In this document: piece after piece, positions 39,873-41,350 of the stretch
Numbering within the stretch: position 1 is the stretch's first letter
Layout: each line of letters begins with the position of its first letter
NCBI RefSeq assembly: GCF_004571065.1
Contig: NZ_SPQN01000027.1
Location: forward strand, 1 to 42,723
Source: Geodermatophilus sp. DF01-2
GTDB lineage: Bacteria; Actinomycetota; Actinomycetes; Mycobacteriales; Geodermatophilaceae
Direction of reading: 5' to 3'
Length of the DNA stretch: 42,723 nt
Position numbers and translations under genes: made by a program
The notes under the pieces: generated by a model
What the model saw: only the letters and a program-made list of their open reading frames with translations
Database searches by the model: none
What the model was told of the DNA's origin: nothing

Positions 39873-39956
39873 CGGCCTCCCTGCAGGGTCCCGACGCCGG
39901 CCCCGTCCGGAGGCTCGCGCCGAGCGTGCGAGGCGTGAGAAGGACGGGGTCCTTCC
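39873..39956 (-). repeat. Dispersed 3' element, copy D
   Basis: Read on the minus strand, about 26 nt after the EamA stop: GGAAGGACCCCGTCCTTC, TCACGCCTCGCACGCTCGGC, GCGAGCCTCCGG and, at the end, GGACCCTGCAGGGAGGCCG. It is closest to copy A and, like the others, in the direction of the upstream gene. The stretch between the stop and 39956 (AAAGGCCTCCCTGCCCCCC) looks like a worn first module. Confidence 0.75.
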
Positions 39957-39981
39957 ACGGTGGGGGGCAGGGAGGCCTTTC

Positions 39982-40923
39982 TCAGGCGTGCGGCTCCGCG
40001 GCGGTTTCCTGCTCGGCCAGGGCCGGACGCCGCAGGTACAGCCCGGCCACGGCCGCGAGCACGAGCAGCCCGCCGGCCAGCGCCCCGAGCGGCAGCCGCT
40101 CCCCGAGGAAGACCGTCGCCAGCACCGTCGCGGTCACCGGCTCGAGCAGGGTCACGATCCCCGCGACCGCGCCCGGCACCGTCTTCAGCCCGCGGAAGAA
40201 CAGCGCGTAGGCCGCGGCGCTGGGCACCGCCCCCAGGTAGAGCAGCGTCGCCAGGGCGACCGGCTCGGTGGTGAGCCGCAGCCCGACGGCCAGGGCGACC
40301 GGCGTCAGCAGCAGTGCGCCGCCGGCGAACCCGGCGAGGGTCACCGGCACCCCGGCCGGGACGTCCCCTCCGGCGAGGGTGACCACCGCATAGCCCAGCG
40401 CCGAGCCGCAGGCCAGCAGGGCGCCCAGCAGCACCGCCGTCCCGGCCGACGCCCCGGCGGTCAGCCCTACCAGCATGACCAGCCCGGTGAGCGCGGCGGC
40501 GAGGGCGACCAGGGTCGCGCGGTCCGGCCGGCCGTGCCCGAGCGCCGCCGTCCCGAGCGCGATGAGCAGCGGCGCCAGGCCGAGCGCCACCAGGGTCGCG
40601 ACGCTCACCCCCGCAGTCGCCACGGCGGCGAAGTAGGCCAGCTGGTAGGCGGCCAGCCCGGCGGCCACCAGGGTCAGCCGGACGGCGACCGGCCGGGTCA
40701 GCGGGACGGCCGGCGAGGTCCGCCGGCGCCGGGTGAGCAGGTAGCCGGTGAGGAGGACGGCGGCGCCGATGGCCATGCGGTGCCAGGCGATGTCGAGCGG
40801 GCCGAGGTCGGTGCGGTCGGCGACGATGCGGCCGCTCACGCCGGAGGTGCCCCAGCAGAGGGCCGCCAGGACGACCAGCGGGAAGCCGCGCGACGCGGCG
40901 GCGGAAGTCGAGGCGGTGGGCAT
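39982..40923 (-). CDS. EamA/DMT family transporter
   Basis: The 313-residue protein has ten membrane segments in two EamA repeats, with GFPLVVLAALCWGTSGVSGR and WHRMAIGAAVLLTGYLL at the N-terminus. In the second half are LGAVPSAAAYALFFRGLKTV and TLLEPVTATVLATVFLGERL, the diagnostic EPV/GE stretch. Members export amino acids and other small metabolites; the substrate is unknown. The ATG at 40923 has AGGAG 4-5 nt upstream. A 14-codon leader ORF and alternative hairpins precede it and probably control translation. Confidence 0.92.
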   Translation of the reverse strand: MPTASTSAAASRGFPLVVLAALCWGTSGVSGRIVADRTDLGPLDIAWHRMAIGAAVLLTGYLLTRRRRTSPAVPLTRPVAVRLTLVAAGLAAYQLAYFAAVATAGVSVATLVALGLAPLLIALGTAALGHGRPDRATLVALAAALTGLVMLVGLTAGASAGTAVLLGALLACGSALGYAVVTLAGGDVPAGVPVTLAGFAGGALLLTPVALAVGLRLTTEPVALATLLYLGAVPSAAAYALFFRGLKTVPGAVAGIVTLLEPVTATVLATVFLGERLPLGALAGGLLVLAAVAGLYLRRPALAEQETAAEPHA

Positions 40924-40926
40924 GAC

Positions 40927-41049
40927 GCTCCTGGGCGGGTCCGGATCGGGAAGGTGGCGGTCCGGAGCACGGCGCAGCGTCCCGGCGGCTGGTGCCGGAA
41001 GGAGGTCAGCCCGCGGTGCTCCGGATCAGGAGCGGGGCGGGGGGAGCAC
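40927..41049 (-). promoter_or_regulatory. Four-segment leader, candidate translational attenuator of the EamA gene
   Basis: On the minus strand, segment 1 GTGCTCC (41049-41043) lies inside the leader ORF. Segment 2 TCCGGAGCAC (41025-41016) starts right after its stop, segment 3 GTGCTCCGGA (40970-40961) comes next, and segment 4 AGGAGC (40932-40927) is the EamA ribosome-binding site. Segments 1:2 pair over 7 bp, 2:3 over 10 bp, and 3:4 over 5 Watson-Crick pairs plus 2 G-U. Thus 3:4 would hide the ribosome-binding site and 2:3 would free it. Confidence 0.55.
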
Positions 41050-41070
41050 GCGGGCGCGCCGGGGCGTCAT
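41026..41070 (-). CDS. Leader peptide ORF (14 aa)
   Basis: ATG 41070 to TGA 41026 codes MTPRRARVLPPPRS. The ATG lies 7 nt after TACCCT (a TAnnnT -10) with no ribosome-binding site, so it may be translated as a leaderless message. It contains three consecutive prolines, which are known to slow ribosomes when EF-P is limiting, four arginines, and ends exactly where the downstream hairpin begins. Together with the alternative pairing this suggests a regulatory stall peptide, not a functional protein. Confidence 0.5.
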   Translation of the reverse strand: MTPRRARVLPPPRS

Positions 41071-41077
41071 GACACGG

Positions 41078-41083
41078 AGGGTA
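41078..41083 (-). promoter_or_regulatory. -10 box of the EamA leader
   Basis: TACCCT on the minus strand ends 7 nt before the leader ATG. No clear -35 is seen. Confidence 0.4.
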
Positions 41084-41127: not shown

Positions 41128-41222
41128 GCAGACCCCTCGTGTGGCGTCACCCCGTGAACCTCCCCAGGGCCGGAAGGCAGCAAGGATAAGCGGGCTCTGG
41201 CGGGTGCGCGAGGGGTCCTTCG
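41128..41222 (+). ncRNA. ffs: Signal recognition particle RNA, small type (4.5S-like)
   Basis: The apical domain IV is unmistakable: the stretch at 41153-41200 holds GTGAACCTCCCCAGGGCCGG, AAGGCAGCAAGG and ATAAGCGGG, with the symmetric and asymmetric loops that bind Ffh. GACCCCTCGT (41131-41140) pairs with GCGAGGGGTC (41208-41217), closing the long hairpin. The position just before dnaX is common in bacteria. The exact ends are estimated. Confidence 0.95.
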
Positions 41223-41350
41223 CTGTACGCGACACCGCGCCCAGGAGGCGTCCCGACCGTCGCTGAGCCCGGCCACCACCGCCGCGTGTGAGATCGCCGA
41301 TGTCGCCGCAAGGTGCGGCGGAGGGCGCCGTCGCTGTCCGACCCGGCACG

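Follow-up and report, generated by a model that had tools for sequence, protein, structure and literature searches.

Conserved Pro-Pro leader peptides before EamA transporter genes of actinobacteria, a candidate leaderless translational attenuator

A short open reading frame that ends in prolines and lies behind a TAnnnT box precedes an EamA family transporter gene in the window (that is, the whole stretch of 42,723 nucleotides of Geodermatophilus sp. DF01-2 DNA that was analysed), and, as the original prediction had expected of its PPP leader, sequence comparison indicates that leaders of this kind are conserved with eamA in many families. Our reading, to which we would attach a probability of roughly 0.6, is that these leaders may act as leaderless translational attenuators that depend on ribosome stalling at Pro-Pro and are dedicated to one transporter family. 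What carries this reading comes from the comparison of sequences, and consists of the reading frame with its box, the conservation of both, selection at the codon level, the link with EamA, and the position held by the complement of the segment that follows the leader stop; the verdict that this exceeds chance is drawn from the relatives, and not from the window by itself.

The leader locus

The reading frame, its box, the arm behind the stop, the complement of this arm and the ribosome-binding site were all confirmed in the window as originally described (Table 1), with 7 nt between the box and the ATG. The matching inverted repeats are I2 (14 nt, 93%), part of the evidence for segment 2, I4 (8 nt, 100%), part of the evidence for segment 1, and I8 (7 nt, 100%). 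The fold of the leader region is better than that of dinucleotide shuffles, with a z of -2.92 (2 of 200 shuffles equally good), and the region is single-copy in the source genome.

Table 1. Features of the leader locus and of related leaders; peptides are written up to the stop, and f numbers denote families
Feature	Coordinates	Strand	Basis or remark
TACCCT, TAnnnT-type -10 box, putative leader promoter	41083-41078	-	transcription start inferred
Leader ORF MTPRRARVLPPPRS, 14 codons, apparently leaderless	41026..41070	-	ATG 41070-41068, stop TGA 41028-41026; peptide and frame kept in relatives, codon-position signature
Second GTGCTCC copy, inside leader ORF (codons 8-10)	41049-41043	-	
Segment 1, CGCTCC (Arg-Ser codons)	41029..41034	-	can pair with segment 2 (GGAGC) or with the ribosome-binding site
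Segment 2, TCCGGAGCAC, directly adjoining the leader stop	41016..41025	-	inverted repeats, relatives
Segment 3, GTGCTCCGGA, complement of segment 2	40961..40970	-	GCTCC part able to pair with the ribosome-binding site
Segment 4, GGAGCG, eamA ribosome-binding site	40926..40931	-	
EamA (DMT) family transporter gene, 313 aa	39982..40923	-	ATG 40923-40921; Pfam PF00892, 96 bits
Small SRP RNA, divergent from leader	41128-41223	+	Rfam RF00169
Dispersed hairpin-like 60-nt GC-rich repeat, window	39899-39958	+	
Dispersed repeat, copy in L030	L030:2599-2666	-	
f16 leader peptide MRPFLGVLPPPRS			
f15 leader peptide VHRIFLVTPPPAS			
f34 leader peptide MHRLFLVTPPPAL			in L156 VHRLFLVTPPPAL
f33 leader peptide MHADALVLPPPAV			
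f31 leader peptide MTPFTVSPPPAR			
f32 leader peptide MSSTVLSPPAA			
f1 arms 2/3, CCGGAGCAC/GTGCTCCGG			
f16 arms 2/3, GCGGAGCGC/GCGCTCCGT			
f15 arms 2/3, GCGGGGTGT/GCACCCCGC			
f31 arms 2/3, GCGGGCGGC/GCTGCCCGC			

One element had to be reassigned. The GTGCTCC copy in codons 8-10, formerly proposed as segment 1, is mostly lost in the relatives, which pair instead through the PP(P)xx end of the leader, represented here by CGCTCC, and the copy was rejected in this role. A scan for intrinsic terminators found none in the leader, its sole match falling within dnaX. No Rfam family matches the leader region at its gathering score, and on this stretch, with E up to 10, there are four matches, all far under their gathering scores. 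A stretch resembling CCACTGTAGAGGA, between the SRP RNA and the leader, is kept in most family loci and is probably the promoter of the SRP RNA.

Conservation of the leader peptide

The transporter led to named relatives in Geodermatophilus, Blastococcus and Modestobacter, which places the window in the Geodermatophilaceae, some EamA match being found in 111 of 112 family genomes. Among the 84 family loci compared, the SRP RNA core lies beside eamA in 76 and is absent in 8, and these 8 were left unscored in the leader count. The leader is present in 53 of the 76 syntenic loci, which, belonging to one family, are not independent; 51 were recognised by the strict pattern, and to these are added L023 (ending PPPRSC-stop) and L048 (ending SSPPRS-stop). 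A TAnnnT box stands 6-8 nt upstream in 52 of the 53, the exception being L046. Conservation of the leader peptide in relatives had been named beforehand as support, and in these 53 loci it is kept; in the other 23, however, the intact leader is missing (absent in 22, decayed in L086), and most of them retain eamA, which comes near to the situation, a leader lost beside a transporter that stays, named beforehand as speaking against the proposal.

The loci without leader are of more than one kind. Seven Blastococcus-type loci (L026, L032, L036, L038, L040, L042 and L052), two of which correspond to L003 and L006, named Blastococcus loci, retain copies of segments 3 and 4 alone, sitting right behind the promoter box. 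The model would take them as permanently off, a point against it, and they may be fixed in the off state or otherwise controlled. In Modestobacter-type loci (e.g. L007, L076) it is the eamA start itself that lies just behind a TAnnnT box, an arrangement that we count in favour of the model. There are also eight longer leaders, of 25 or 29 codons and still in frame (L013, L018, L021, L022, L028, L030, L034, L087). The extra stretch was read in four of them (L013, L018, L028, L030), and since that of L030 matches many genomic copies, at least 46, at least 41 and at least 44 in the three genomes searched, a dispersed repeat has entered the leader with the frame unbroken.

The same repeat has at least 46 matches in the source genome, one of them within the window. 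In L074 and L087 the leader is kept though eamA is interrupted or shortened, and in L086 it is decaying with such an eamA; L074 and L087, as well as L023 and L048, stand outside the 49-sequence family sets.

Outside the family, 80 loci were studied, 40 from a search of the order (298 genomes) and 40 from a search of the class (246 genomes), these being mostly, not strictly, the best of the matches listed. A sequence-blind scan, which accepted any reading frame of 7-35 codons with its start 4-9 nt behind a TAnnnT box and within 300 nt of eamA, found such a mini-ORF in 56 of the 80, against an average of 1.95 in dinucleotide shuffles and 0 on the reverse strand. A mini-ORF ending PPx(0-3)-stop occurs in 53 of the 80 (0.11 in shuffles, 0 on the reverse strand), and one ending PPPx(0-2)-stop in 43. 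By eye, a leader without box was recognised in L138, L155 and L160; none was seen in f8, f28, f40, f48, f49, f51 and f52, each represented by one to three loci. In L158 the leader is in a shifted frame (MHRLFPITPPPLPSGARPSAPAAL), through a one-base change in the proline run or a sequencing error.

The distance from box to start in 106 leaders is 6 nt in 21, 7 nt in 61 and 8 nt in 24, where 4-9 nt had been allowed, and the start codon is ATG in 88 and GTG in 18; the leader transcript would then apparently be leaderless, opening with its ATG or GTG. The leaders measure 9-29 codons, with two to four proline codons near the end, which takes the form [V/I][L/T/S](P/S)PPxx-stop. In 82 unique peptides, proline stands four residues before the stop in all 82 and three before it in 79, and, as the set was selected for Pro-Pro near the end, the register alone is informative.

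Judging by its substitutions, the leader peptide is under codon-level selection. Over the last seven codons of 32 unique family sequences, the differences per pair at codon positions 1, 2 and 3 are 0.088, 0.115 and 0.332, variation at third positions being about three times that at first and second, and in the downstream region of the same sequences they are 0.585, 0.579 and 0.561. The codon differences among family leaders are synonymous in 941 cases and non-synonymous in 446, and in five f16 leader sequences 22 of 22 differences are synonymous; between families the peptides diverge, with 2154 synonymous versus 3203 non-synonymous differences, which is counted against the model.

RNA arms and alternative pairing

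The arms were tested in 103 leaders (54 outside, 49 in the family), with enough sequence in 89 for the position, 87 for the 3:4 pairing and 100 for the opening cost. In 76 of 89 loci the best complement of segment 2 starts 42-58 nt upstream of the eamA start codon, against 17.6 predicted by shuffles, with the reservation that the distances had first been seen to cluster and the range was picked on the same data. By family, it holds this position in 35 of 39 loci of f1, 16 of 17 of f16, 5 of 5 of f31, 5 of 6 of f15 and 4 of 4 of f34, and in 3 of 6 of f33, 3 of 5 of f2, 2 of 3 of f4, 2 of 3 of f32 and the single locus of f13. Segments 2 and 3 remain complementary, with arm sequences specific to each family, and the spacing from stop to arm is conserved in relatives, so that two further elements of the original prediction, the alternative 2:3 pairing and the spacing, were borne out. 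In terms of what makes a ribosome-mediated attenuator, comparison indicates a translated leader, and alternative pairing (1:2 and 2:3) is found by the above position count and by the counts of paired cells in the family given below, with modest energies.

The energies are in effect only modestly better than those of shuffles, a weak result that is counted against the model: the share of shuffles as good is 0.10 for 1:2, 0.23 for 2:3 and 0.37 for 3:SD by duplex energy, and 0.33, 0.15 and 0.34, respectively, by single best helix. Covariation inside the family is thin. Compensatory changes had been expected in segments 2, 3 and 4, and they are found in 2:3 (416 of 430 cells paired), in 12 cells that all belong to one pair, but not in 3:4 (288 of 292 cells paired, compensatory cells 0); 1:2 (238 of 245 cells paired) has one such cell, in L070, where the last residue passes from Ser to Pro. 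In L134 the best 1:2 helix lies on the Ala-Pro-Pro codons, with the Arg-Ser codons looped out and the peptide end still PPRS.

Pairing of segment 3 with the ribosome-binding site, which would hide it, stands clearly above shuffles only in some families. Over 87 loci, 0.285 of shuffles give 3:SD helices as good, and the ribosome-binding site is touched in 51. It is covered by 8-10 bp in the f16 core loci, by GCTCC/GGAGC in the window's family, and, by eye, through bases beside segment 3 in L162 and L163 (f33); outside the window's family, the f16 core and these two f33 loci, 3:4 pairing is no better than in shuffles.

In computation over 100 loci, opening the ribosome-binding site costs on average 7.76 kcal/mol in the free RNA and 5.49 when the RNA is masked to one base past the stop, as by a stalled ribosome, with 6.97 for a ribosome at the stop, 6.86 for segment 2 masked and 6.46 for segment 2 shuffled. 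The stall-like masking brings a reduction above 0.5 in 79 of the 100 loci and an increase in 7; 14 of the 100 would fare better with segment 2 shuffled, and f2, f13 and f31 show no gain relative to a masked segment 2. The expectation that a stall would free the ribosome-binding site is consistent with computation for those 79 loci, but the sequence of the window (L012) gives the opposite, 5.2 free, 6.1 stalled and 8.2 at the stop, and, the cost being higher stalled than free, the window's own fold opposes the model.

Link with EamA and clues to the cargo

Three models of the leader alone, R1, R2 and R3, were searched in 148, 150 and 148 genomes. R2 and R3 gave 18 and 13 strong matches (E up to 1.2e-6), 20 of these 31 being absent from the models' alignments, and all 31 lie upstream of EamA homologues; within the reach of these models, therefore, no other type of gene was found to follow the leader. 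A leader with EamA within 450 nt is present for 27 of the 31; in L212 and L215 EamA is downstream and a TAnnnT leader was not picked up by the scan, and in L236 and L242 the leader is present with EamA somewhat further away. Weak matches were many, most of them had no locus for inspection, and among the loci returned for them leader and EamA are both found only in L199, L222 and L252. Below E 0.001, R1 gave the window's own leader alone.

The protein family was discarded as a guide to the cargo, its matches being generic only: besides Pfam, NCBIfam gives TIGR00950 (91 bits) and YddG (31 bits), both under their cut-offs, and a PDB sequence search at E 0.01 has no match. The neighbouring genes were discarded likewise, a comparison of 12 loci by eye having shown nothing common between families. 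In some f33 genomes (L231, L233, L234) the leader-bearing EamA gene has another EamA gene just in front of it.

The EamA protein of the window has no match in plasmids at 1e-10. Relatives of an f33 EamA are encoded in nine PLSDB records, and the six of these that were examined (H1-H5 and H9) all have the leader behind a TAnnnT box. The leader MQLFLTPPPPAA of Streptomyces sp. NBC_01187 adjoins Tn3 transposase genes, and VPRRLICSPPPAR is found in an 11.85-Mb record of Nonomuraea gerenzanensis, which is probably the chromosome. On a plasmid of Streptomyces sp. NBC_01216 (L270, 14450-23835), leader and EamA come first in a gene run whose annotations are 2OG-Fe dioxygenase, diaminopimelate epimerase, aminotransferase and ornithine cyclodeaminase. 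This set resembles an unusual-amino-acid pathway, although a single example gives no more than a hint.

Discussion

Ribosomes stall at two prolines in a row and are relieved by EF-P (PMC6544042, PMC11611912), in mycobacteria an mRNA that opens with ATG or GTG needs nothing more for leaderless translation (PMC4633059), and in S. lividans TAnnnT is the reported -10 motif, with 17% of leaderless transcripts (PMC8079986). In the mechanism that we propose, transcription would start at or beside the leader ATG and give a leaderless mRNA, on which a ribosome would translate a short peptide ending (P/S)PPxx. On free passage, arm 1, formed by the last leader codons, would pair with arm 2, past the stop, arm 3 would be available to hide the ribosome-binding site (4), and little exporter would be made. 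If the ribosome stalled while its active site held the prolines, arm 1 would be covered and the ribosome edge would come only to about the stop codon, so that 2:3 would pair, the ribosome-binding site would be free and the exporter would be made. The ribosome usually reaches 15-16 nt past its site; with the second proline in the P site and the third in the A site its footprint would extend approximately to the end of the stop codon, with segment 2 just free, and a large part of segment 2 would be covered once the ribosome sat at the stop. We infer that stalling induces the exporter, whatever its signal; an antibiotic, EF-P shortage and the supply of proline or arginine were the candidates first suggested.

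Translational attenuators of the erm and cat type use a short leader peptide to switch alternative pairing over the ribosome-binding site. The leaders described here resemble them in the short peptide, in the alternative pairing, and, on the proposed mechanism, in a ribosome-binding site that would be hidden and then freed; they differ from them in hosts and in gene, as well as by the apparently leaderless start and the Pro-Pro end, and a dependence on an antibiotic would here be conjectural. Closer in peptide are the RAPP/RGPP arrest peptides (ApdA, ApcA, ApdP; CruR), likewise upstream ORFs with a Pro-Pro stall motif near the C-terminus, also actinobacterial, which stall with proline in both P and A sites (PMC10951233, PMC10987492, PMC12992588); however, they are much longer, stand mostly before protein-localisation or metal genes and carry RAPP-like motifs, whereas the present leaders have 9-29 codons, precede EamA, end in [V/I][L/T/S](P/S)PPxx-stop and apparently start leaderless. 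Neither RAPP nor RGPP occurs among the leader peptides listed, which end (P/S/A/T)PPxx-stop, and neither PMC12992588 nor PMC10987492 has the word "EamA" in its main text. The leaderless leaders of actinobacteria (leuL, trpL, ilvL; the mycobacterial polycysteine ORFs) are, as the present leaders appear to be, leaderless short ORFs before a regulated gene, but they count codons of the amino acid of their pathway and precede biosynthesis genes, and none of the eight S. lividans leaders listed in PMC8079986 stands before EamA. MgtL, of the mgt genes of Salmonella and E. coli, also has proline codons in the leader of a transporter, but with magnesium and Rho-dependent control of transcription, in enterobacteria (PMC11282234), and CutF, a polyproline upstream ORF thought to control the next gene, precedes a multicopper oxidase gene (PMC10987492). 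By analogy, then, the present leaders appear to work like erm/cat attenuators and Pro-Pro arrest peptides, with no RAPP motif encountered. A Pro-Pro leader before EamA was not found described in the portion of the open-licence full-text literature covered, in agreement with the original prediction, in which no described example was known for this family.

Other explanations must be weighed against a Pro-Pro attenuator. That the conservation is due to the divergent SRP RNA promoter, or to chance in GC-rich DNA, seems scarcely credible: the family leader does adjoin the SRP RNA gene and the DNA is GC-rich, but this is contradicted by the outside loci (53 of 80 against 0.11 in shuffles), by the absence of the SRP core from all of the 40 regions inspected among these 80, and by the codon-position signature of the leader. 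It is also improbable that the peptide acts in trans, or that the leader merely boosts translation by reinitiation, the RNA arms being incidental; reports exist of leader peptides that act in trans (peTrpL) or through reinitiation, yet the distance from leader stop to eamA start is mostly about 60-170 nt, which is far for reinitiation, and the complement of segment 2 holds its position.

Two alternatives concern the signal. If three proline (or arginine) codons sensed charged tRNA, and EamA moved proline or a relative, this would be amino-acid attenuation, in line with the proline run in every leader and with the leaderless amino-acid leaders known in S. lividans (PMC8079986). We regard it as unlikely, because some leaders have two prolines only (SPPAA-stop, APPRS-stop), the proline codons are mostly CCC and CCG (186 and 181 of 407), a transporter annotated as exporter-like would be produced during starvation, and codon counting does not need the fixed PPxx-stop register. 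A general stress of translation with no specific ligand, in which low EF-P would stall PPP and turn the exporter on, is possible but somewhat doubtful: it agrees with the stalling at Pro-Pro that EF-P relieves (PMC6544042, PMC11611912), but a link of EF-P to this transporter was not found, and the hydrophobic residues ahead of Pro-Pro ([V/I], then [L/T/S]) are also kept, which suggests a specific nascent chain.

Returning to the attenuator dedicated to EamA, we advance only tentatively that leaders ending [V/I][L/T/S](P/S)PPxx-stop could form an undescribed class of ligand-sensing arrest peptides, in which a small amino-acid-like antimetabolite or antibiotic, the presumed EamA cargo, would act on the active site of the ribosome and stall it at Pro-Pro, in such a way that the exporter would be made only when the cargo is inside the cell. 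Taken jointly with this, and just as tentatively, the module of leader and exporter may also travel on plasmids of Streptomyces, in one case next to genes for a Tn3 transposase and in another heading the apparent unusual-amino-acid pathway.

If the attenuator is real, a widespread family of actinobacterial transporters would be run by a ribosome sensor of about a dozen codons that gene annotation has missed, and a leaderless class ending in Pro-Pro would join the known stalling leaders. Such leaders could serve as natural reporters of proline-stalling stress, or of a toxic small molecule, and would offer a route to finding what these EamA proteins move.
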